A stretch of DNA of 64,000 nt. It comes from Syntrophorhabdaceae bacterium (lineage in GTDB: Bacteria; Desulfobacterota; Syntrophorhabdia; Syntrophorhabdales; Syntrophorhabdaceae). The notes beneath the pieces are model-generated. The model searched no databases. It was not told where the DNA came from and saw nothing but the letters and a program-made list of their open reading frames with translations. The number at the start of each line of letters is the position of its first letter. The first letter of the stretch is position 1. Below are positions 2,991 to 18,515 of the stretch, one piece after another. Where the stretch lies: positions 1-64,000 of the forward strand of contig JAOAGQ010000008.1 in NCBI GenBank assembly GCA_026415675.1. The letters run 5' to 3'. A program made the position numbers and the translations under genes.

Positions 2991-3856
2991 TGGATGTTAT
3001 CCATACACCTGTTCTCCTTGAGGAAGTAACAGCGAACATCATAAAAGACGATACAGAATTGCTTGTCGATGCAACAGTGGGAGGTGCAGGCCATTCTTAT
3101 CACATACTTGAGAAACACAGGGACATAAGACTCATAGGTATTGATATGGATGAGGTGGCCCTTGAGGTGGCCAGGGAAAAATTATCAGGATTTAAGGAGA
3201 GGGTAAGGCTTATAAGGGGAAATTTCAAGGATTTAAAGGGGCTACTTCAAGGACACGGGATATACGGTTTTGATGCGATAATATTCGACCTTGGTATATC
3301 TACCTTTCAGATTATGGGAAGAAGGGGATTCAGTTTCCACGATGATGTGTTTATGGACATGAGGATGGACATAAGAGAGAAGACAACAGGGTACGATGTG
3401 GTAAATTTTTACGATTTTAAAAGGCTTCTCTCGATCATAAGGGACTATGGAGAGGAGAGGAAGGCCCATAAGATAGCAAAGGCGATTGTGGAGGCAAGAA
3501 AGATAAAACCCATAAATACCTCATATGAACTGGGTCACATCGTATCGAGGGTAAAGAGAAAAACGGGGAAAATCCACCCTGCGACAAAAACATTTCAGGC
3601 CATAAGGATAGAGGTAAACAGGGAACTGGAAAACTTAAGAGAAGGCCTTCTCGGGGCTATAGAGATGCTGAACAAAGGGGGTAGGATAGGGGTAATCTCC
3701 TTTCACTCCCTGGAGGACAGAATCGTAAAGAATACTTTTAAAGACTCCCCATCCCTGGTTGTGATCACAAAAAAGCCTATCACACCAGGGAGGGAGGAAA
3801 TTGCGAGGAATCCCAATGCGAGGAGCGCAAAACTCAGAGTGGCGGAAAAACTATAG
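2990..3856 (+). CDS. rsmH: 16S rRNA (cytosine(1402)-N(4))-methyltransferase RsmH
   Basis: A 288-residue SAM-dependent methyltransferase (MraW) that modifies C1402 in the decoding site of 16S rRNA. It starts with HTPVLLEEV; the SAM-binding loop is DATVGGAGHS near residues 26-35, and FDLGIST and VISFHSLEDR are diagnostic. The ATG at 2990 overlaps the mraZ stop (TGATG), which implies translational coupling; a TTG three bases earlier is an unlikely alternative. It is the second gene of the cluster as usual. Confidence 0.95.
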   Translation: MDVIHTPVLLEEVTANIIKDDTELLVDATVGGAGHSYHILEKHRDIRLIGIDMDEVALEVAREKLSGFKERVRLIRGNFKDLKGLLQGHGIYGFDAIIFDLGISTFQIMGRRGFSFHDDVFMDMRMDIREKTTGYDVVNFYDFKRLLSIIRDYGEERKAHKIAKAIVEARKIKPINTSYELGHIVSRVKRKTGKIHPATKTFQAIRIEVNRELENLREGLLGAIEMLNKGGRIGVISFHSLEDRIVKNTFKDSPSLVVITKKPITPGREEIARNPNARSAKLRVAEKL

Positions 3857-3866
3857 AGGGAACGGA

Positions 3867-4172
3867 ATGGAAAGGATCGCCGTCTCGGTGAGAAGAAGTA
3901 AGAGGGAGCATGAGTATGGATTCTCCATCCTGATGGTTTTTCTTGCCCTTTTTTTATATCTCATCACCTCGTTCTATCTTAAAGGGGCATACAATGAGGC
4001 GAGGGAAAGATACATGGAGGCGTTAAAGGCACAGAAAATCCTTACAGAGATGAACGATGAGTTGAGAACGAAAAAATCGGTGATAACACAGAGGAGGTTT
4101 CTCGAGTTACAGGCCGGGGAGCGCCTCGGTTTGAGACATGCGAAAGAGGAAGAGGTTCTTGTATCGAGATGA
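3867..4172 (+). CDS. ftsL: Cell division protein FtsL (FtsL/FtsB-like)
   Basis: A 101-residue bitopic membrane protein between rsmH and the ftsI slot, the usual place of ftsL. A basic N terminus (VSVRRSKREHEYG) is followed by one transmembrane segment (SILMVFLALFLYLITSFYL) and a coiled-coil-like outer region with heptads, ending in LELQAGERLGLRHAKEEEV, typical of FtsL. FtsL forms a complex with FtsB and FtsQ that activates FtsWI. ATG 3867 has a GAGGGAACGG ribosome site; an upstream in-frame ATG at 3801 lies inside rsmH and is less likely. The gene overlaps the next by ATGA. Confidence 0.8.
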   Translation: MERIAVSVRRSKREHEYGFSILMVFLALFLYLITSFYLKGAYNEARERYMEALKAQKILTEMNDELRTKKSVITQRRFLELQAGERLGLRHAKEEEVLVSR

Positions 4173-5068
4173 ACAAAAGGGCTAACAGGAAGGCCTTTTT
4201 TGTCTGTATATCGATTTTTTTGGTTTACCTTTGGGTGGGGATGGGGCTTTATGAACGGTCTATATGGCAGAGGAACGCCTACGAGGGAAAGATAGGGGCA
4301 TCAAATATGGGTATGAATCTTAAAAGCGATATAAAAAAAGACGAAAAGAAAGAGATAGAACCTCTTACAACCAAAGTGGAGAAAGAGGGGGCTCGAGAGA
4401 GAAAACTGGTACGGAAAGAAGGGGGAGCAGAAATGGTAGAACCTTCTTATCTGATTTCCGTACCCTTTGTTCTTTTCGCTATAAAACAGAATCTACTCGA
4501 GAAGGATAGTCTTATACCCTCGAAAAAGGATGGCCCCAATAATATTTTAAGCTGGAAGAGGCCCCTCGATATTCTAAGAGAGAGAGACGATGAAGGTCTT
4601 ATAAACATCTCAAAGACAATAGGCTTAAAGAATATGGTTCGCCTTCTGAGAGAGGAAGGAGTGGAGGTGGAGGAGGGACTTTCCCCTGGAGAGATCATGT
4701 TGGGAAGGGGTTATGTGATCGAGAGGAATAAACTTCTGGGGCTATACAATAAATATGTAGGGGATGAGTACAGAAGCCTCTTTCCATATTCCTCAGGGAA
4801 TATGACGATAAGCAAAAAAGGAGGGGGATTCGAACTTGTCTCCTTAAAGGTTTTCCCCCAAGATGAAGGGGAACACAGGATAGACGGTTGGTATATGCCT
4901 GATGTGAGGGGGCTTCCATTGAAGACCGCCCTTGAGAGGCTCACCAATTATACGGATAACATAAGGATATACGGGTTCGGTATTGTGCAGGATCAGTTCC
5001 CAAAACCACAGGATAGGGTCTTACCCGATACGGTATGTATATTATACGGGAAAGGGGAAGGGAGATGA
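4169..5068 (+). CDS. Degenerate FtsI-like protein with PASTA domain (pseudo-transpeptidase)
   Basis: This gene occupies the ftsI/pbpB slot between ftsL and murE but encodes only 299 residues instead of about 550-650. Visible parts: cytoplasmic basic N terminus; transmembrane anchor around 9-26; a charged Lys/Glu-rich linker (40-90) where the pedestal domain should be; a segment 91-200 that aligns by eye with a transpeptidase core; and a PASTA domain from about 243 (MPDVRGLPLKTALERL) to the end. The catalytic motifs are gone: the EPGSTFK region reads E91-P-S-Y94-L-I-S97, so the active Ser is Tyr and the Lys is Ser. The SSN motif aligns to R139-D-D141. No clear KTG is seen, only KKGGG at 216-220. 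LGRGYVIERNKLLGLYNKY near 178 matches the conserved GxG..TPLQLA.AY helix. Overlap with ftsL (ATGA) and the uninterrupted frame argue that it is expressed. It may be a structural partner of the ftsW-slot protein. The alignment is manual. Confidence 0.7.
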   Translation: MNKRANRKAFFVCISIFLVYLWVGMGLYERSIWQRNAYEGKIGASNMGMNLKSDIKKDEKKEIEPLTTKVEKEGARERKLVRKEGGAEMVEPSYLISVPFVLFAIKQNLLEKDSLIPSKKDGPNNILSWKRPLDILRERDDEGLINISKTIGLKNMVRLLREEGVEVEEGLSPGEIMLGRGYVIERNKLLGLYNKYVGDEYRSLFPYSSGNMTISKKGGGFELVSLKVFPQDEGEHRIDGWYMPDVRGLPLKTALERLTNYTDNIRIYGFGIVQDQFPKPQDRVLPDTVCILYGKGEGR

Positions 5069-5102: not shown

Positions 5103-6557
5103 ATGATGAAACTGAAAGAGCTCATACACGAGCTTCCCTACACAAGCATCGAGGGGGATCCTGATATAGATATCTCAAAAATAACCAAGGATTCCCGGGA
5201 AGTAGAGGAAGGGACCCTCTTTTTTGTAACCGGCAGCAACAAACTCTTCATAGAGGATGCGAAGAAAAGAGGTGCCTATGGGGTTGTAAGTAGTGAAAAG
5301 ATCAATATACCTTTTAAGTGTTCTATCATCACAGAAGACCCTGCGTATATGCTGGGCCATGTGGCATCGAGGTTCTTTGGTTATCCCTCAAGGGATATGT
5401 TCGTTGTCGGTATTACAGGTACCAACGGGAAGACGACAACAAGCTACCTCACCGAATCCATCCTGAAGGCAGGGGGAAAAAAGACAGGCCTTATAGGTAC
5501 CATAGCCTATCGTTTCAACGGGGAGGTAAGAAAGGCGGATAATACAACGCCAGGGGCGGAGACGCTCCACGGTCTACTGAAAGAGATGAGGGATTACGGT
5601 GTTGAGGATGTGGTTATGGAAGTTTCATCCCATGCCCTTGACCAGAAGAGGGTGGAGGGGATAGACTTCGATGTAGGGATATTCACAAACTTAACCCACG
5701 ACCATCTCGATTATCATCAAACGATAGAAAATTACATGAAGGCGAAGAGGCTTCTTTTTACATACCATCTCGATAGGAGTAAAAAGGCTGATAAATGGGC
5801 GATTTTAAACCTCGATGACCCCTATGTAGAGGCGATGAAGCCCGAAGGACATATAAAGACATTCTACTACAGTATCGAAAAAAAGGCCCATGCCCATCTT
5901 TTGGCCTATGAAGAGTCGATAGAGGGACTGAAATTAAAGATCTCCCTCATCGGTCATACCCTTTCTGCCTTATCCCCCCTCATAGGCATATTCAACGCCT
6001 CAAACATCCTCGCCTCATCCCTTGCCGGCTATGCAGCAGGTATACCTTTTGAGATGATTGTAAAGGGTATAGAGACCTTGCCAGGTGTGCCTGGTAGACT
6101 TGAGAGGGTAAAAAATGATAAGGGTATCTCTGTCTTTGTCGATTACGCCCACACCCCCGATGCCCTGAAAAACGTCCTTACCTTATTATCCCGTCTTAAG
6201 AAGGGCAGACTCATTGTGGTATTCGGATGCGGGGGGGATAGGGATAGGGCAAAAAGACCTTTGATGGGCGAGATCGCTACAAGGTACGGTGATCTTGTGA
6301 TCATCACATCGGATAATCCCCGAAGGGAAGACCCGGAAAAGATCATAGAGGAGATCAAAAAAGGGGTAAGGGGCAACAATTTTAAGGTGCTGGTCGACAG
6401 AAGGGAGGCAATCAAAGAGGGTCTAAATCTTACGGGTGAAAAAGATGTACTCCTTGTTGCAGGGAAGGGCCATGAGGACTACCAGATCATAGGGGAGAAG
6501 GTGTTCCCTTTCAGCGACCAGGAAACGATAAGGGAAATTTTGTCATGTGGTCTATAG
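5103..6557 (+). CDS. murE: UDP-N-acetylmuramoyl-tripeptide ligase MurE (meso-DAP type)
   Basis: A 484-residue Mur ligase that adds the third stem residue to UDP-MurNAc-L-Ala-D-Glu in the cytoplasm. The ATP P-loop GITGTNGKTTT is near residues 101-111. The substrate motif DNPRREDP near residue 404 is the DNPRxEDP signature of meso-diaminopimelate-adding enzymes. The length is normal. Two adjacent ATG codons (5103, 5106) are possible starts; the AAGGGG at 5096-5101 favours the second. The 3' end overlaps murF by 13 bases. All catalytic motifs appear intact, in contrast to the upstream ftsI-slot gene. Confidence 0.96.
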   Translation: MMKLKELIHELPYTSIEGDPDIDISKITKDSREVEEGTLFFVTGSNKLFIEDAKKRGAYGVVSSEKINIPFKCSIITEDPAYMLGHVASRFFGYPSRDMFVVGITGTNGKTTTSYLTESILKAGGKKTGLIGTIAYRFNGEVRKADNTTPGAETLHGLLKEMRDYGVEDVVMEVSSHALDQKRVEGIDFDVGIFTNLTHDHLDYHQTIENYMKAKRLLFTYHLDRSKKADKWAILNLDDPYVEAMKPEGHIKTFYYSIEKKAHAHLLAYEESIEGLKLKISLIGHTLSALSPLIGIFNASNILASSLAGYAAGIPFEMIVKGIETLPGVPGRLERVKNDKGISVFVDYAHTPDALKNVLTLLSRLKKGRLIVVFGCGGDRDRAKRPLMGEIATRYGDLVIITSDNPRREDPEKIIEEIKKGVRGNNFKVLVDRREAIKEGLNLTGEKDVLLVAGKGHEDYQIIGEKVFPFSDQETIREILSCGL

Positions 6558-8982: not shown

Positions 8983-10308
8983 ATGGGTATTCCTGAGCAT
9001 ATACTTATAGTGGGTTTAGGGGCAACAGGGATTGCTGTAGCAAAATTCCTCAACAGTTTGGGGAAGAAGATCGCAATCACCGATGAAAAAAAAGAGGAAG
9101 AGCTAAAACATGCCTTAAAAGAGCTTGAAGGCATTGGGTTTCAGGGCATGTTTGGTGGCCACAGGGAGGAAGACTTCCTCAAATACCCCATGATCATATT
9201 GAGTCCAGGGGTCGATTCCAACCTTCATGTGATAGGGGAGGCAAGAAGGCGGGGTATAAAAGTTGTGGGGGAGATTGAGCTCGCCTCTTGGTTTGTTGAG
9301 GAACCTATCATTGCCATCACGGGGACAAACGGTAAGACAACGGTCACATCCCTTATCGGGGAGATCTTCAAAGAGGCGTATGGGGATGTTTTTGTGGGGG
9401 GAAACATAGGAAACCCCCTTATAAACTACGTGATGGAAAAGGTAAAAAGGCCTTATATCATCCTCGAGATAAGTAGTTTTCAGCTCGAAACCATAGAACA
9501 TTTTCGTCCCGACACCGCGGTACTTCTCAATATCACAGAGGACCATCTCGATAGATACAGGAGTTTTTCCGAGTACGAGGAGGCGAAATATCGGATTTTT
9601 GAGAACCAAAGAGACGATAACTGGGCAGTGATAAACGAGGATATCCCCAGAAAGAGGGATTTGAAAGGGCATACCCTCTTCTTTTCCATGAAAAATACCC
9701 TTAAAGAGGGGGCATTTTACAGTGATGGCTTAATCCATGTGAGGTTAAAAGGGAAAGAGACCGTATATAGAAGAGATTTGTCCCCCCTTATAGGGGTGCA
9801 CAACACAGAGAACATAATGGCGGCCCTCATCGTGTCCCACATATACGATATCCAAAAAGAGGTGATCGAGGAGGTACTAAATAGATTTAAGGGCCTCCCC
9901 CACAGGGTAGAGCCGGTAAGGGAGGTGGGGGGAATCCGTTTCTATAACGATTCAAAGGCCACCAATGTGGATGCCACAAGAAGGGCCCTCCAGAGCATCG
10001 AGGGGAATGTGGTGCTCATCGCAGGGGGAAAGGATAAGATGGGCACATATAAGGTGTTGTCCGATGTTATGGGTAAGGTTAAGGCAATGGTGCTCATAGG
10101 GGAAGCCAAAGAGCGTATATTAAAGGAGATAGGGGGCTTAACGAAAACGTATACGGAAGAGACCCTTGAATCAGCGGTCAATACCGCCTTTAGGTGTGCT
10201 GAAAAGGGTGATATTGTCCTTTTCTCGCCGATGTGCAGTAGCTTTGATATGTTCAGGGACTATAAAGAGAGGGGAAACAGGTTTAAAGAGATCGTGGAGG
10301 GATTATGA
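8983..10308 (+). CDS. murD: UDP-N-acetylmuramoyl-L-alanine--D-glutamate ligase MurD
   Basis: A 441-residue Mur ligase that adds D-Glu to UDP-MurNAc-L-Ala. A Rossmann-like start (ILIVGLGATGIAVAKFL) is followed by ITGTNGKTTVTSL near residue 110, LEISSFQLE, NITEDHLDRY, and FYNDSKATNVDAT near residue 320. Length and motifs are normal. Its stop overlaps the start of the ftsW-slot gene by ATGA. Confidence 0.96.
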   Translation: MGIPEHILIVGLGATGIAVAKFLNSLGKKIAITDEKKEEELKHALKELEGIGFQGMFGGHREEDFLKYPMIILSPGVDSNLHVIGEARRRGIKVVGEIELASWFVEEPIIAITGTNGKTTVTSLIGEIFKEAYGDVFVGGNIGNPLINYVMEKVKRPYIILEISSFQLETIEHFRPDTAVLLNITEDHLDRYRSFSEYEEAKYRIFENQRDDNWAVINEDIPRKRDLKGHTLFFSMKNTLKEGAFYSDGLIHVRLKGKETVYRRDLSPLIGVHNTENIMAALIVSHIYDIQKEVIEEVLNRFKGLPHRVEPVREVGGIRFYNDSKATNVDATRRALQSIEGNVVLIAGGKDKMGTYKVLSDVMGKVKAMVLIGEAKERILKEIGGLTKTYTEETLESAVNTAFRCAEKGDIVLFSPMCSSFDMFRDYKERGNRFKEIVEGL

Positions 10309-11093
10309 GGACCGCGCTCTTTTTGATGCTTGGGGCCATGCTTTTGTACAGCCTCTTCCTAAAGGCGGATATCCCTTCCCTCTTTTTTGTCCTGTTGAGC
10401 GTCGGTATCTCCTACCTTATATACCGTGTCCCTGCAAGATATATCGTGGCGATGAAGTATCCTGTGATCTTTCTCCTCTTAAGTGTAACGGTACTTTTCC
10501 TTATATACCCCCATTTGAAACTCCCGGGCCCGATGGAAGGCTTATTGTTCTTCATCTCTTTCTACAGTGTATCCTATTTTCTCATCACCATAGATGAGAA
10601 GGAGAGGGGTCTATTCAAGGAGGCGACCGCCCTTTCCGTGGTCTTCCTCTGTTCTGCCTTTAATATGTCGATGGTGGGAAAGGCCGTCTTTATATTGCCT
10701 ATAGCCTTTGCCGGTCTTATATTTCTCTTTATCCTTGGGAAAAACAGGCTCCTTGTTGTCCTTGCCTTCCTCAGCTTAGTCGTTACCGGTCTTATGATCA
10801 ATAAAGGGGTGGCCCTCACAAACCCCAAGACCTCTTTGAACGATATGAACAGATACATGGTGCTCACAACTTCTTTTATATTCCTTATGATCGGCTTTGC
10901 GAGTTTTGTGAAAAGTAAGGAAGTTCTAAAAAAATTGAGCTTTTTCGGTTTTTTATATCTTGCGGTAGACATCATAATGACCCTTGCCTTAAAAATCTCT
11001 ATGGGCCTTCTCTATCAGCCCTTCTTGGCCCTTTTTGTACTGACCCCTCTGATCGGTGTCTCCATGAAGAGGGAGAGGGGGGCGGTCAAATGA
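10305..11093 (+). CDS. Degenerate FtsW-like membrane protein (pseudo-SEDS)
   Basis: This gene fills the ftsW slot between murD and murG, overlapping both by four bases, but encodes only 262 residues instead of about 370-400. About ten hydrophobic segments can be placed (near 1-19, 22-42, 46-71, 77-96, 107-124, 124-143, 147-164, 183-201, 209-232 and 234-254), matching the SEDS topology with the loops removed. Conserved SEDS motifs are missing: the QPDLGT region aligns to N120-M-S-M-V-G, and the catalytic HTDFIF..EE motif aligns to T-T-S190-F-I-F, with the Asp replaced by Ser and the EE pair by F-A. The large extracellular loop before it is reduced to about 18 residues (165-182). The terminal SMGLLYQPFLA recalls the TGxPLPFxS segment. 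FtsW normally polymerises septal glycan from lipid II; this protein very likely cannot. An unrelated membrane protein in this slot is the alternative. Confidence 0.6.
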   Translation: MRTALFLMLGAMLLYSLFLKADIPSLFFVLLSVGISYLIYRVPARYIVAMKYPVIFLLLSVTVLFLIYPHLKLPGPMEGLLFFISFYSVSYFLITIDEKERGLFKEATALSVVFLCSAFNMSMVGKAVFILPIAFAGLIFLFILGKNRLLVVLAFLSLVVTGLMINKGVALTNPKTSLNDMNRYMVLTTSFIFLMIGFASFVKSKEVLKKLSFFGFLYLAVDIIMTLALKISMGLLYQPFLALFVLTPLIGVSMKRERGAVK

Positions 11094-12172
11094 AAATCTT
11101 AATCAGCGCAGGGGGCACAGGGGGTCATATCTTCCCAGGGATAGCGGTAGCTGAGGCCTTTTCCTCGATGAAAGGTAGCTATGAGGTATTCTTTGTGGGA
11201 ACGAGGCAGGGGATGGAAAGCACTATCATCCCTTCATACGGGTTCAGGCTCCTCTTTGTTGAGGCACGCCAGTTTCTCGGCAGAAGCGTTTTGTACAGGC
11301 TTGCCACCCTCCTCTATCTGCTAAAAGGTATCTACACCTGCAAACGTTTGATAGGTAAAGAGAAACCCGATGCGATCCTCGGTATGGGGGGCTTTACCTC
11401 TGTCCCTGTTGTCTTTGCAGGGGTGATATCCGGTATCCCTGTCTTTCTCCATGAGCAGAACGTAGAACCGGGTCTTGCAAATAAAGTGCTCTCACGGTAT
11501 GCGAAAATGGTCTTTGTGAGCTTCCCCGAATCCGCCCGATTCCTTAAGGGAAAAAATATACATCATACGGGAAACCCTTTAAGGAAGGGGATAAGGAGAG
11601 GAAGGGAGGAGAAAAGAGGGGATGGACTTAGTATTTTCATATTCGGGGGCAGCAGGGGGGCAAAGAGGTTAAACAGTGTAGCGGTGGAAATGTTACCCCT
11701 TCTCGAGGAGAAAGGGGGCATATCCGTATACCACCAGACAGGGAAAGAGGATTTTGAGTGGGTCAAAAACGAATACAGACAGACAAAGATAAACTACGAT
11801 GTCTTTCCCTTTACAGAGAACATGGCAGACTATTATAAAAAATCGGATGTGGTTATATCAAGGGCAGGGGCATCCACCATATTCGAGCTTGCCTATTTTA
11901 AAAAGGCCGCAATCTTAATCCCCTATCCATACTCAGCCGGACAGCACCAATGGAAAAACGCCTCGTATGTGGAGAAAAAAGGGGGAGGGTATGTGATAGG
12001 AAACGATGAGGCCACAGGGGAGAGGGTTTTCAGGGCAATAAGACATCTCATAGAGAACCCTGAACTCATAAAGGAGATGGGACAAAACATGGGCAATCTG
12101 TATGTGGATGGCGCGGAAGAGAAGATCGCAACTTACATCATAGATTACGTGGGAGAGGGGGGTAGGGTTTGA
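11090..12172 (+). CDS. murG: UDP-N-acetylglucosamine--undecaprenyl-PP-MurNAc-pentapeptide transferase MurG
   Basis: A 360-residue GT28 glycosyltransferase that converts lipid I to lipid II on the inner face of the membrane. The N-terminal G-loop SAGGTGGHIFPGIA is at 6-19; ILGMGGFTSVP and FLHEQNVEPGLANK follow. The C-terminal donor site includes GGSRGAKRLN and SRAGASTIFEL. Length is normal. It overlaps the ftsW-slot gene by ATGA. Confidence 0.96.
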   Translation: MKILISAGGTGGHIFPGIAVAEAFSSMKGSYEVFFVGTRQGMESTIIPSYGFRLLFVEARQFLGRSVLYRLATLLYLLKGIYTCKRLIGKEKPDAILGMGGFTSVPVVFAGVISGIPVFLHEQNVEPGLANKVLSRYAKMVFVSFPESARFLKGKNIHHTGNPLRKGIRRGREEKRGDGLSIFIFGGSRGAKRLNSVAVEMLPLLEEKGGISVYHQTGKEDFEWVKNEYRQTKINYDVFPFTENMADYYKKSDVVISRAGASTIFELAYFKKAAILIPYPYSAGQHQWKNASYVEKKGGGYVIGNDEATGERVFRAIRHLIENPELIKEMGQNMGNLYVDGAEEKIATYIIDYVGEGGRV

Positions 12173-14502: not shown

Positions 14503-15402
14503 ATGAGGGATAAAAAAATAGGTATACTTATGGGCGGCATATCTTCAGAGAGGGATATCTCTATCAAAAGTGGAACCGCCGTCTATAACAGCCTTCAAAG
14601 GCAGGGATATAATGCGAAAGGTATCGATGTGGGTAGGGATGTTTGCGATACCCTTTTAAGAGAGAAGATAGATATCGCCTTCATAGCCTTACATGGGAGA
14701 TGGGGTGAGGACGGTACGGTCCAGGGGCTTCTCGAACTGATGGCCATACCTTATACAGGCTCGGGGATCGTAGGCTCCGCCATCTCTATGGACAAGATCA
14801 TAATGAAAAGGATGTTAAATGCTATTGGTGTGCCCACTCCGGAATATGAGGTGTCAACAGGTATTGGGGATATTAAACTCCCCCTGCCTTTTGTTGTAAA
14901 GCCTCCCTGCGAAGGGTCAACGATAGGGATATCTATCGTCAAAAGTAAAGAAGAGGTAGAAAAGGCAATCGAGACCGCCTTTCAGTACGACAGAAAGGTG
15001 CTCATAGAAAGATATATAGAAGGGGATGAAATAACGGTTGGGATCGTAAACGGTAAGATTCTCCCTGTGATACAGGTGGTACCGAAAAAGGGTTTCTATG
15101 ATTTTGAGGCCAAGTACACAAAGGGCATGACCGAATACGTGATCCCCGCGAGGATAGATGAAAAGGTTGATAGAGAGGCCAAAGAACTGGCCATCGCCAT
15201 ATATGAGGCATTTCAACTCTCCGGTTGTGTGAGGATAGATATGCTCGTTGAGAGGACGGAAGGGATACCCCTTGTGATAGATATAAACACATCCCCGGGC
15301 ATGACGGAGACCTCCCTTGTGCCCAAGGCATGGGCCCATCTCGGCGGTACTTTCGATGAACTCGTTGTAGAGATATTAAAGGGGGCATCGCTTAAGATAT
15401 GA
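14503..15402 (+). CDS. ddl: D-alanine--D-alanine ligase
   Basis: A 299-residue ATP-grasp enzyme that makes D-Ala-D-Ala for MurF. Motifs: LMGGISSERDISIKSG at 9-24, ALHGRWGEDGTVQGLLE near 63, PFVVKPPCEGSTIGI, and the metal-binding DINTSPGMTETSL near the C terminus. The ATG lies 14 bases after murB and the end overlaps ftsQ by four bases. Confidence 0.95.
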   Translation: MRDKKIGILMGGISSERDISIKSGTAVYNSLQRQGYNAKGIDVGRDVCDTLLREKIDIAFIALHGRWGEDGTVQGLLELMAIPYTGSGIVGSAISMDKIIMKRMLNAIGVPTPEYEVSTGIGDIKLPLPFVVKPPCEGSTIGISIVKSKEEVEKAIETAFQYDRKVLIERYIEGDEITVGIVNGKILPVIQVVPKKGFYDFEAKYTKGMTEYVIPARIDEKVDREAKELAIAIYEAFQLSGCVRIDMLVERTEGIPLVIDINTSPGMTETSLVPKAWAHLGGTFDELVVEILKGASLKI

Positions 15403-16100
15403 AAAGGATCATCCACTTTCTCTTCATCATCCCGGTCTGCATCATCTCCATGTTTACCATGATATACATCTTCTCCCAGGAAGAACCCCTGTTCCACATA
15501 AGAAATCTGAAGGTCAACGGGATTCAACAGTTAAAAGAGGCGGAGGTGATAAAGAGGATAAGCCCCTTGCTCGTAGGAAATATATTCAGGCTTGATGCGG
15601 AGAAGGTAAGGGAGGCGATCGTATCCCATCCCTATGTGAAGGACGTGAGGATAAAGAGGGTCTATCCTTTTTCGGTACTTGTAGATGTTGTTGAGAAGAA
15701 ACCATCGGCCCTGTGGGTTGACGGGCATGGCGTCATCAGAATACTCGACGAGGATGGTGAACCTTACAGGGTATTCTCGAAAAAAGAGGGTAAAGGCCTT
15801 ACCATCATTACCGCGGAGAAACAATCCGAGGCAAAGAGGATATATATAGAGATGATGGACTGGATCAAGGATGGGGTGATAAAAAGGGAGGAGATCTCTC
15901 AGGTTGTCGTAAAGGAAGGGGATGTTATCTTATTTGGAACGGACGATGCCGTTGAGGTGATCCTCGGTAAAGAAGACTTAGAGGCAAGGCTCAAAAGGGC
16001 GAGGGCAGTCCTTGAGGATGCAAAAAAGAGGGGGCTTATGATCAGGTGCATAGATGCACGATTTGAGAAAGGTGCGATTATCGAGGAAAGGAAGGGCTGA
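15399..16100 (+). CDS. ftsQ: Cell division protein FtsQ
   Basis: A 233-residue bitopic protein. A short cytoplasmic tail and a transmembrane segment (IHFLFIIPVCIISMFTMIYIF) are followed by a POTRA domain (HIRNLKVNGIQQLKEAEVI through KRVYPFSVLVDVVEKKPSALW) and the FtsQ beta domain. FtsQ scaffolds FtsLB at the septum and normally controls FtsWI. Its persistence next to altered FtsW/FtsI-slot genes suggests the complex still assembles. It overlaps ddl by ATGA and precedes ftsA by 2 bases. Confidence 0.92.
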   Translation: MKRIIHFLFIIPVCIISMFTMIYIFSQEEPLFHIRNLKVNGIQQLKEAEVIKRISPLLVGNIFRLDAEKVREAIVSHPYVKDVRIKRVYPFSVLVDVVEKKPSALWVDGHGVIRILDEDGEPYRVFSKKEGKGLTIITAEKQSEAKRIYIEMMDWIKDGVIKREEISQVVVKEGDVILFGTDDAVEVILGKEDLEARLKRARAVLEDAKKRGLMIRCIDARFEKGAIIEERKG

Positions 16101-16102
16101 CT

Positions 16103-17350
16103 ATGACAAGGGATGAAGATCTTCTCGTAGGTGTTGATATAGGGACTACAAAAATCTGTGTTGTGGTCGGTAAGGTAGTGGAAAATAACGTGAGTATCAT
16201 AGGCATAGGCTCCCATCCATCCACAGGCTTGAGAAAGGGTGTTGTTGTAAACATGGACAGTACGATCAACTCCATAAAGAAGGCCGTAGAAGATGCAGAG
16301 TTGATGGCAGGGGTGAAGATAGACAGTTGCTATGCTGGCATAGGGGGGGCCCATATAAAGAGCTTTAACAGTAACGGCGTTGTCGCCATAAAGGAGAAGG
16401 AGGTAAGGCCTGACGATATAGCAAGGGCAATAGATGCCGCAAAGGCGATAGCGATCCCTGCGGACAGAGAAATCCTCCACGTGATACCCCAGGAGTTTAT
16501 CATAGATGACCAGGACGGGATAAAAGACCCCATAGGGATTACAGGGGTGAGGCTTGAGGTGAAGGTGCACATCGTAAGCGGAAGCGTATCCTCCGTTCAG
16601 AATATAATAAAATGTTGCCGCCTCGCCGGCCTCAACGTGGATGACATAATTCTCGGTCAGCTTGCCTCATCGGAGGCAGTTTTGAGTCCTGAAGAGAAGG
16701 AGATAGGCGTGGCCCTTGTGGATATGGGAGGGGGAACCTGTGATGTAGCCGTATTTGCAGGGGGTAGTATCAAGTACACATCCGTTTTGCCCTTTGGAGG
16801 CAACAACATAACGAACGATATAGCGATAGGATTGCGGACCCCGCTGGAAGATGCGGAGAAGATAAAGAAAAAGTACGGCTGTGCCCTCTCAAGGATGGTA
16901 GAGGCGAACGAGATGATAGAGGTACCCAGTGTGGGGGGTAGAAAGCCGAGGGCATTAAACAGGAAGACCCTTGCGGATATCGTGGAGCCCAGGGTGGAGG
17001 AGATATGTTCCATGATATACGCCGAGATAAAGAAGTCCGGATACGAAAAGGTCCTTGCCTCGGGAGTGGTTATTACAGGAGGGGGTTCAAACCTTGAAGG
17101 GCTCCCGGAACTCTCGGAGAGCATATTCAACCTTCCTGCCCGCAGGGGTTCGCCCATAGGTGTTACAGGCCTTGTGGATGTGGTGAATAACCCTATCTAT
17201 GCAACGGGGGTAGGGCTAATCCTGTACGGATTTAGACATCAACCGTTGAGAAAAAAGAGAAAACTGATGCAGGGGAAGTCTTTTAAAAGGATATTAAACG
17301 GAAAAGGACTCATCAACAGGATGAGGGAATGGTTTAAAGAAATTTTTTAG
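16103..17350 (+). CDS. ftsA: Cell division protein FtsA
   Basis: A 415-residue actin-like ATPase that tethers FtsZ to the membrane. Phosphate motif GVDIGTTKICVVVG is at 9-22; the 1C domain follows with VKVHIVSGSVSSVQNI, and LVDMGGGTCDVAVF and VITGGGSNLEGLPEL are the other nucleotide motifs. The C terminus MREWFKEIF is an amphipathic membrane-targeting helix. It lies between ftsQ and ftsZ. Confidence 0.96.
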   Translation: MTRDEDLLVGVDIGTTKICVVVGKVVENNVSIIGIGSHPSTGLRKGVVVNMDSTINSIKKAVEDAELMAGVKIDSCYAGIGGAHIKSFNSNGVVAIKEKEVRPDDIARAIDAAKAIAIPADREILHVIPQEFIIDDQDGIKDPIGITGVRLEVKVHIVSGSVSSVQNIIKCCRLAGLNVDDIILGQLASSEAVLSPEEKEIGVALVDMGGGTCDVAVFAGGSIKYTSVLPFGGNNITNDIAIGLRTPLEDAEKIKKKYGCALSRMVEANEMIEVPSVGGRKPRALNRKTLADIVEPRVEEICSMIYAEIKKSGYEKVLASGVVITGGGSNLEGLPELSESIFNLPARRGSPIGVTGLVDVVNNPIYATGVGLILYGFRHQPLRKKRKLMQGKSFKRILNGKGLINRMREWFKEIF

Positions 17351-17360
17351 GAGGTGTTAA

Positions 17361-18515
17361 GTGAGCATGGTATTCTACATGGATGAGGGAAACGGTTTTT
17401 CAGCGAAACTCAAGGTAGTGGGTGTAGGTGGTGGAGGCTGCAACGCTATTAACAATATGGTAAATGCAAACGTCCCGGGGGTGGAGTTCATAGCGATCAA
17501 CACGGACGTAAAATCTTTAAACGCCTGTAAGGCCCCGGTAAAGATACAGATAGGGAGTAAACTGACAAGAGGTCTCGGGGCCGGGGCAAACCCTGAAGTA
17601 GGTAAAAAGGCCGCCCTCGAGGATATAGATAAGATTTCAGAGCATCTAAAAGGGGCGGATATGGTCTTTATCACCTGTGGTCTCGGAGGTGGTACCGGAA
17701 CAGGGGCATCCTCTGTGGTGGCCGAGGTATCGAAAGAGCTTGGGGCCCTGACCGTGGCCATTACCACAAAACCTTTTGCCTTTGAAGGAAAAGACAGGAT
17801 GAAGCAGGCTGAATACGGGGTCTCCCAGTTGAAGACAAGGGTCGATTCATTGATCACCATCCCCAATCAGAGGTTGATGTCCATTGGGGGTAAACATATG
17901 ACGATCGTGGAGGCATTCAAGAGGGCGGACGAGGTCCTTTTAAATGCGGTAAGGAGCATATCCGATTTGATCGTAGGTTCAGGTTATGTAATCGTCGATT
18001 TCGCCGATGTAAAGACAATAATGAGCGAGAGGGGTATGGCGATCATGGGGATTGGAGAGGCCTCGGGGGAAAACAGGGCAAGGGATGCGGCACAGAAGGC
18101 CATATCGAGCCCTTTGCTCGAGGATATCTCAATCCACGGGGCACGGGGGGTTCTCATAAATGTCACAGGGAATAGCGATATGAGCCTCCATGAGGTACAT
18201 GAAGCATCAAGCCTGATACAGGAACAGGCCCATGAAGATGCAAAGATCATATGGGGGCTTGTGTACGACGATTCTATGGAGAACTCGATGCGGATCACCG
18301 TGATAGCCACAGGTTTTGAAGAAAAGGCAGCTGTAGAAGAAGACGAAACGGAGGCGATAAAGAGCGGGAGGCTTTTCGAGGCAGGAAGGATGCCCTCTTT
18401 TGTGAATACGAAGGGCTCTCTTGACTATAAGGACATAAAGTCGAAGAGTGATGTGATGGATCTCGATGATGAGCGGTTCTTCATACCGACATACTTGAGA
18501 AAGCAGGCGGATTAA
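17361..18515 (+). CDS. ftsZ: Cell division GTPase FtsZ
   Basis: A 384-residue tubulin-like GTPase that forms the Z ring. Motifs: [13 protein letters not shown] near residue 22, the GTP signature [13 protein letters not shown] near 108, and NADEV-like [10 protein letters not shown] (T7 loop region further on). A short linker ends in the conserved peptide [10 protein letters not shown] that binds FtsA. GTG at 17361 follows AGGAGG (17349-17354) by 6 bases; an ATG at 17367 is possible. It ends the dcw cluster, 15 bases before the convergent lnt. Confidence 0.97.

Follow-up and report, generated by a model that had tools for sequence, protein, structure and literature searches.

Within the first 64,000 nucleotides of contig JAOAGQ010000008.1 (assembly GCA_026415675.1, Syntrophorhabdaceae bacterium; hereafter the window), the open reading frame (ORF) at 4169-5068 on the forward strand is probably the ftsI gene of the division and cell wall (dcw) cluster after loss of its enzyme. 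The resulting pseudo-transpeptidase, pseudo-FtsI, would be kept as a noncatalytic scaffold or sensor of the divisome. Its active site has been lost, yet the protein is conserved, which suggests that it serves division structurally, apart from any catalysis. The protein and its parts are as follows.

4169-5068 (+): pseudo-FtsI, 299 aa, with a transmembrane helix, a disordered charged linker, a reduced transpeptidase-fold domain lacking SxxK, SxN, and KTG, and a PASTA domain
4175-4240 (+): predicted N-terminal transmembrane helix, residues 3-24 (structure model; N terminus highly conserved)
4256-4426 (+): charged low-confidence linker replacing the pedestal, residues 30-86 (predicted local distance difference test [pLDDT] <50; PF03717 absent)
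4430-4846 (+): transpeptidase-fold remnant, residues 88-226 (pLDDT mostly 82-95 in 10-residue blocks; structural and profile matches given below)
4439-4459 (+): EPSYLIS at the position of the EPGSTFK (SxxK) box, residues 91-97 (orthologue and profile alignments)
4583-4591 (+): RDD at the position of the SxN motif, residues 139-141 (orthologue and profile alignments)
4895-5053 (+): PASTA domain, residues 243-295 (sub-cutoff Pfam score, profile match, structure model)

A preliminary description of this sequence had proposed that the serine and lysine of the SxxK box and the SxN motif were lost, that a charged linker had replaced the pedestal, and that a conserved helix and a C-terminal PASTA domain remained, and each of these claims stands. 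The orthologue alignment places EPSYLIS and RDD exactly where they had been located, and the KTG motif is gone as well. Neither PF00905 nor PF03717 was found in a Pfam search of the 299-aa protein, and residues 30-86 are predicted to be disordered. Overall, the orthologue and profile alignments, with intact FtsI as the contrast, reveal none of the three active-site motifs in pseudo-FtsI; SDIK in the linker and SGN near residues 209-211, which resemble SxxK and SxN, are unconserved chance strings. No Ser, Cys, Lys, or Thr is invariant in the transpeptidase-like domain, in which K130 and K131 are nearly invariant. What is conserved among orthologues is the N terminus, the EP box, the helix, and PASTA.

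Homology to FtsI was assessed by comparing a profile of residues 86-215 from 38 orthologues with ten intact FtsI proteins of the same phylum. The alignment is collinear, with EPS on EPG, DEGL on the NIGA of SSNIGA, and GYVIERNKLL on GVSVTGMQL, and it scores 30.2, compared with a mean of 13.6 for shuffled profiles (standard deviation, 2.8; maximum, 25.1; 0/100 as high) and 16.3 for the reversed profile. The Pfam PASTA score of pseudo-FtsI itself is 18.4 bits, below the gathering cutoff of 23.2, but a profile of the 38 orthologues matches the PASTA domains of the ten intact FtsI proteins with a probability of 96.6 (E = 5.7e-10). It is plausible that this domain would still bind peptidoglycan or lipid II.

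The predicted structure leads to the same placement. An AlphaFold model built on an alignment of 13 sequences has a transmembrane helix at residues 3-24 and predicts disorder in the linker at 30-86, followed by a domain of high confidence at about 88-226 and by PASTA. A Foldseek search with this model returned penicillin-binding protein (PBP) 2x first (E = 8.1e-5) and Escherichia coli PBP3 sixth (E = 3.8e-4). When residues 85-231 of the model were compared with the transpeptidase domains of FtsI and other PBPs using VIA-align, Z reached 11.3 over 144 residues (root mean square deviation, 3.4-3.7); Z values of <13 may be unspecific for helical bundles, and the domain of pseudo-FtsI is mixed. 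All 50 of the listed VIA-align rows are PBPs or carry the title peptidoglycan synthetase or glycosyltransferase. The sequence profile agrees with the fold match independently. The transpeptidase-like fold that the preliminary description had anticipated between residues 91 and 240 is thus present, in reduced form, at residues 85-231, and there is no intact active site elsewhere in the protein.

The start of the window is a dcw cluster in the order tRNA-Phe, mraZ, rsmH, the ftsL-slot ORF, the pseudo-FtsI ORF, murE, murF, and mraY, followed downstream of mraY by murD, an ORF encoding 262 aa (10305-11093), murG, murC, murB, ddl, ftsQ, ftsA, and ftsZ. Of these, mraZ, rsmH, murE, murD, mraY, murG, ftsQ, ftsA, and ftsZ were checked with Pfam, and the others were named by position and sequence. 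Because of this order, ORF 4169-5068, lying between ftsL and murE, occupies the ftsI slot. It is open and joined to the ftsL-slot ORF by an ATGA overlap. The cluster is otherwise normal around the ftsI slot; the ftsW slot is also abnormal. No Pfam or NCBIfam model scored above its cutoff for the ftsL-slot protein.

3801-4172 (+): ftsL-slot ORF between rsmH and ftsI, 123 aa, probable start ATG near 3867
5103-6557 (+): murE (Pfam Mur ligase domains, cluster order)
8983-10308 (+): murD (Pfam MurD N-terminal and Mur ligase domains)
10305-11093 (+): ftsW-slot protein of 262 aa with 10 predicted helices, probably a reduced FtsW (matches no family of Pfam or NCBIfam)
11090-12172 (+): murG (Pfam glycosyltransferase 28 domains)
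15399-16100 (+): ftsQ (POTRA and FtsQ/DivIB C-terminal domain)
16103-17350 (+): ftsA (Pfam)
17361-18515 (+): ftsZ (Pfam)

The conservation among orthologues that the preliminary description had expected extends throughout the order, most likely Syntrophorhabdales judging from named relatives retrieved by similarity. In a first survey of 60 genomes (the window's own and its relatives; 44 of the order and 16 outside it), pseudo-FtsI is present in 44/44 genomes of the order, while 2/16 of those outside match it weakly and in the PASTA part only. A first scan of genome contigs with the pseudo-FtsI sequence as the query gave no match. An assembly or frameshift artifact was rejected on the basis of the protein's presence in all 44 genomes. 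Among seven pairs of close relatives, the nonsynonymous rate (dN) is 0.011-0.177 and the synonymous rate (dS) is 0.114-1.128, for a dN/dS of about 0.10-0.26. Because dN is well below dS in all seven pairs, the gene is under purifying selection and is not a pseudogene.

These data bear on two alternatives to a retained noncatalytic protein. One is that the gene is decaying after FtsW and FtsI became dispensable, as might be supposed from its fast evolution, from the loss of the pedestal and part of the domain, and from a stop that splits the ftsW-slot gene in one genome (G012). However, every genome of the order keeps the gene with its N terminus, EP box, helix, and PASTA conserved, and the substitution rates agree in seven of seven pairs, so that we regard decay as very improbable. 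The other, that pseudo-FtsI still acts as an enzyme through another nucleophile, could appeal to the retention of the fold around the old cleft, but a domain that has no invariant Ser, Cys, or Thr and is missing the KTG region makes this even harder to credit.

The 262-aa protein between murD and murG holds the position of FtsW but has no match to PF01098 (SEDS/FtsW). It was found in 44/44 genomes of the order and 0/16 outside. In the seven pairs of close relatives, its dN is 0.026-0.117 and its dS is 0.141-0.867, so that this gene, too, is under purifying selection. SEDS proteins have ten transmembrane helices, and ten helices are predicted here, at a mean pLDDT of 48.6. The full profile of this protein scores 29.8 against FtsW, compared with 16.0 and 15.2 against RodA, 14.8 against MraY, 18.0 for the reversed profile, and a maximum of 23.9 in 60 shuffles. 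The match is confined to the N-terminal half, and the C-terminal part (14.5) gives no signal. An earlier, smaller set of MraY decoys scored 25.0 against the profile, which makes the support for homology to FtsW moderate. Descent from FtsW is the most likely origin; the N-terminal half looks FtsW derived, and the rest is unproven. In SEDS proteins, a large loop bears the catalytic Asp, and the model of the 262-aa protein leaves little room for such a loop between helices 7 and 8. In genome G012 (L136, 1980-2701), the products of the stop-split gene are 150 and 86 aa.

FtsZ, FtsA, FtsQ, RodA, and PBP2 are all present in the window's genome, but neither a recognizable FtsW nor a further class B PBP of the FtsI type was found there. 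The single PF01098 match in this genome is RodA, which adjoins PBP2 and mreBCD (RodA and PBP2 by Pfam, mreBCD by sequence and position). It groups with RodA of other families and not with the dcw FtsW (starred branch of 99); the idea that this sole SEDS protein is a relocated FtsW was therefore rejected. PF03717 occurs once in each of the 44 genomes of the order, in PBP2 in the case of the window's genome, compared with two copies in 12, three in one, one in two, and none in one of the 16 genomes outside. Just three proteins score above the PF00905 cutoff, namely PBP2 and the products of a 650-aa and a 707-aa frame, and a fourth, weak match is a DacA-like carboxypeptidase by sequence. Together with two matches to PF00912 (the class A PBP transglycosylase) and the one to PF03717, these matches led us to reject a second FtsI elsewhere in the genome. 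A single PF01098 match was also found in 41/44 genomes of the order; G039 has a second, fragmentary match, and an additional, distant SEDS protein is encoded in each of G009 and G018. The extra proteins, of 458 and 470 aa, respectively (L180, 4792-7979, and L181), both lie on a long separate branch, and that of G009 overlaps a 677-aa frame for a class B PBP, near a Ser/Thr kinase.

A search of 395 genomes of the phylum with the orthologue profile returned full-length relatives, among the matches listed, from the order only (17/17 of its genomes in the sample). It also returned PASTA matches in unusually short FtsI frames, leading to further FtsI proteins without any catalytic motif, and PF01098 counts revealed many families with a single SEDS protein. 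Clusters were then compared between single-SEDS and two-SEDS genomes, selected nonrandomly according to the number of their SEDS proteins and the coordinates of PASTA or FtsW, and motifs were scored by regular expressions. Outside the order, both FtsI and the ftsW slot could be read in 69 of the 78 genomes tabulated. In all 37 genomes (15 families) with no SEDS gene between murD and murG, the dcw FtsI is devoid of all three motifs, and in all 32 genomes (25 families) with a SEDS gene in that slot, it has all three. Seven uncounted genomes have an FtsI and an unreadable ftsW slot; the motifs are absent from G241 and present in G354, G090, G115, G101, G261, and G308 (the last scored by eye; the pattern missed EPGSTTK). 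Two more have no FtsI row, namely G167 and G107, the latter with a stretch that starts inside the cluster. The outgroup genomes G046, G047, G049, and G055, in which FtsI has all three motifs, are outside the table because FtsI and the slot are on different stretches. RodA is the sole SEDS protein in three of the FtsW-less genomes, where it lies near mreB and a PBP2 with intact motifs. One of these is the closed genome G057 (L293, 5156-6285), in which the gene for RodA, the only SEDS gene found, is divided between frames of 156 and 206 aa.

On a quick tree of five Mur proteins from 79 genomes, the FtsW-less state, including that of the order, requires three changes, each with a matching change in FtsI. 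We somewhat favor the view that large lineages dividing with FtsZ have dropped the septal synthase formed by a SEDS protein and a class B PBP, that FtsW is lost or reduced whenever the FtsI active site is lost, that the inactive FtsI usually persists as a conserved noncatalytic component of the divisome, and that the septum is built by RodA-PBP2 or by class A PBPs. Several points weigh against this view and against a divisome role for pseudo-FtsI. The coupling is not significant by a sign test because only three independent pairs are available; uniting family f20 with the main FtsW-less clade, which lowers the number of events, is not rejected by the approximately unbiased (AU) test (p-AU = 0.618), and placing the order together with the remaining FtsW-less lineages is disfavored by no more than a narrow margin (p-AU = 0.0696). 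The FtsW-less state with a motif-less FtsI thus represents one to three joint events, and the phylum-wide coupling is striking but not statistically proven. In f30, another FtsW-less family, the genomes G070, G340, and G374 are not among the PASTA matches listed and G167 (L282) has no detected FtsI at all, so that a PASTA scaffold is not universal there.

The FtsI-slot proteins of f30 (L206, L276, L289, and L292) are 324-392 aa long, with a PASTA match in G410. In G053 (L160), in which FtsW is present, two frames make up the dcw FtsI, and the one that carries PASTA is a 225-aa ORF. In several FtsW-less families, murE and murF apparently form a single fused frame about 980-1050 aa long (L217-L224, L231, L233, L234, L240, L241, L243, L280, L286, L290, and L291).

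As a noncatalytic part of the divisome, pseudo-FtsI would bind the reduced ftsW-slot protein and/or FtsL through its transmembrane helix, and either nascent septal peptidoglycan or partner proteins would be contacted by PASTA and the transpeptidase-like fold. Its placement would then position or license another synthase, and the septal wall would be made by RodA-PBP2 or by class A PBPs, neither of which the data favor. Capture by the elongation machinery is a tentative possibility, in which pseudo-FtsI would be a regulator recruiting RodA-PBP2 to the site of division and a single pair would act in elongation as well as in division: RodA-PBP2 is the only SEDS and class B PBP pair found in the window's genome, alongside mreBCD, and the same context with intact PBP2 motifs recurs in the three FtsW-less genomes described above. 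However, class A PBPs are also encoded (the two PF00912 matches of the window's genome). We would give a similarly doubtful standing to the proposal that pseudo-FtsI positions a class A PBP that makes septal peptidoglycan, as in Clostridioides difficile (passages of PMC10693644). Besides the window's genome, nearly all of the FtsW-less genomes have PF00912 (none in G132), but its copy number is not raised in FtsW-less families, every genome of f66, f80, and f94 that was searched having one copy (13/13). The number of class A PBPs gives no basis for choosing between the two candidate synthases.

According to PMC10693644, septal peptidoglycan synthesis is considered to depend universally on the FtsW-FtsI pair. 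In a clade whose FtsI survives only as a pseudoenzyme, nature has separated the structural role from the enzymatic one, which makes the role of FtsI besides cross-linking directly testable, and raises the question of which synthase can take over septation. If pseudo-FtsI is indeed a retained divisome protein, the structural function of FtsI is separable from catalysis and is kept by evolution on its own. Furthermore, selection seems to act on FtsW and the FtsI active site as one unit, as suggested by their coupled loss in the phylum. We found no report in the open-access literature of loss of the FtsI active site coupled to FtsW absence; within that literature, FtsW absence is known for two related groups.

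Those groups are the Thermodesulfobacteria (passages of PMC8871954) and four genomes of the Desulfobulbaceae (passages of PMC7873302), whose clusters resemble those described here in having no ftsW; the passages concerned carry no mention of FtsI active-site loss, and the order studied here keeps a reduced ftsW-slot protein. C. difficile likewise relies on a class A PBP for division and does without a canonical FtsW/FtsI pair, but according to the passages of PMC10693644, its dcw pair is repurposed for sporulation, whereas here the dcw FtsI has no active site and FtsW is reduced or gone. In Staphylococcus aureus, as described in PMC9426605, loss of the PASTA domains of PBP1 stops division and loss of its activity gives a different phenotype. 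PBP1 is a precedent for a division PBP whose PASTA is needed for septum progression and whose structural role is separable from activity; unlike pseudo-FtsI, it is catalytically active, and that activity is also essential there. The closest likeness is to FtsI/PBP3 proteins with a C-terminal PASTA domain, such as the intact dcw FtsI of related families and Streptococcus pneumoniae PBP2x, with which pseudo-FtsI shares the transmembrane anchor, the transpeptidase-type fold, PASTA, and the dcw position before murE, but from which it differs in lacking the pedestal, SxxK, SxN, and KTG and in having a transpeptidase domain of about half the size.
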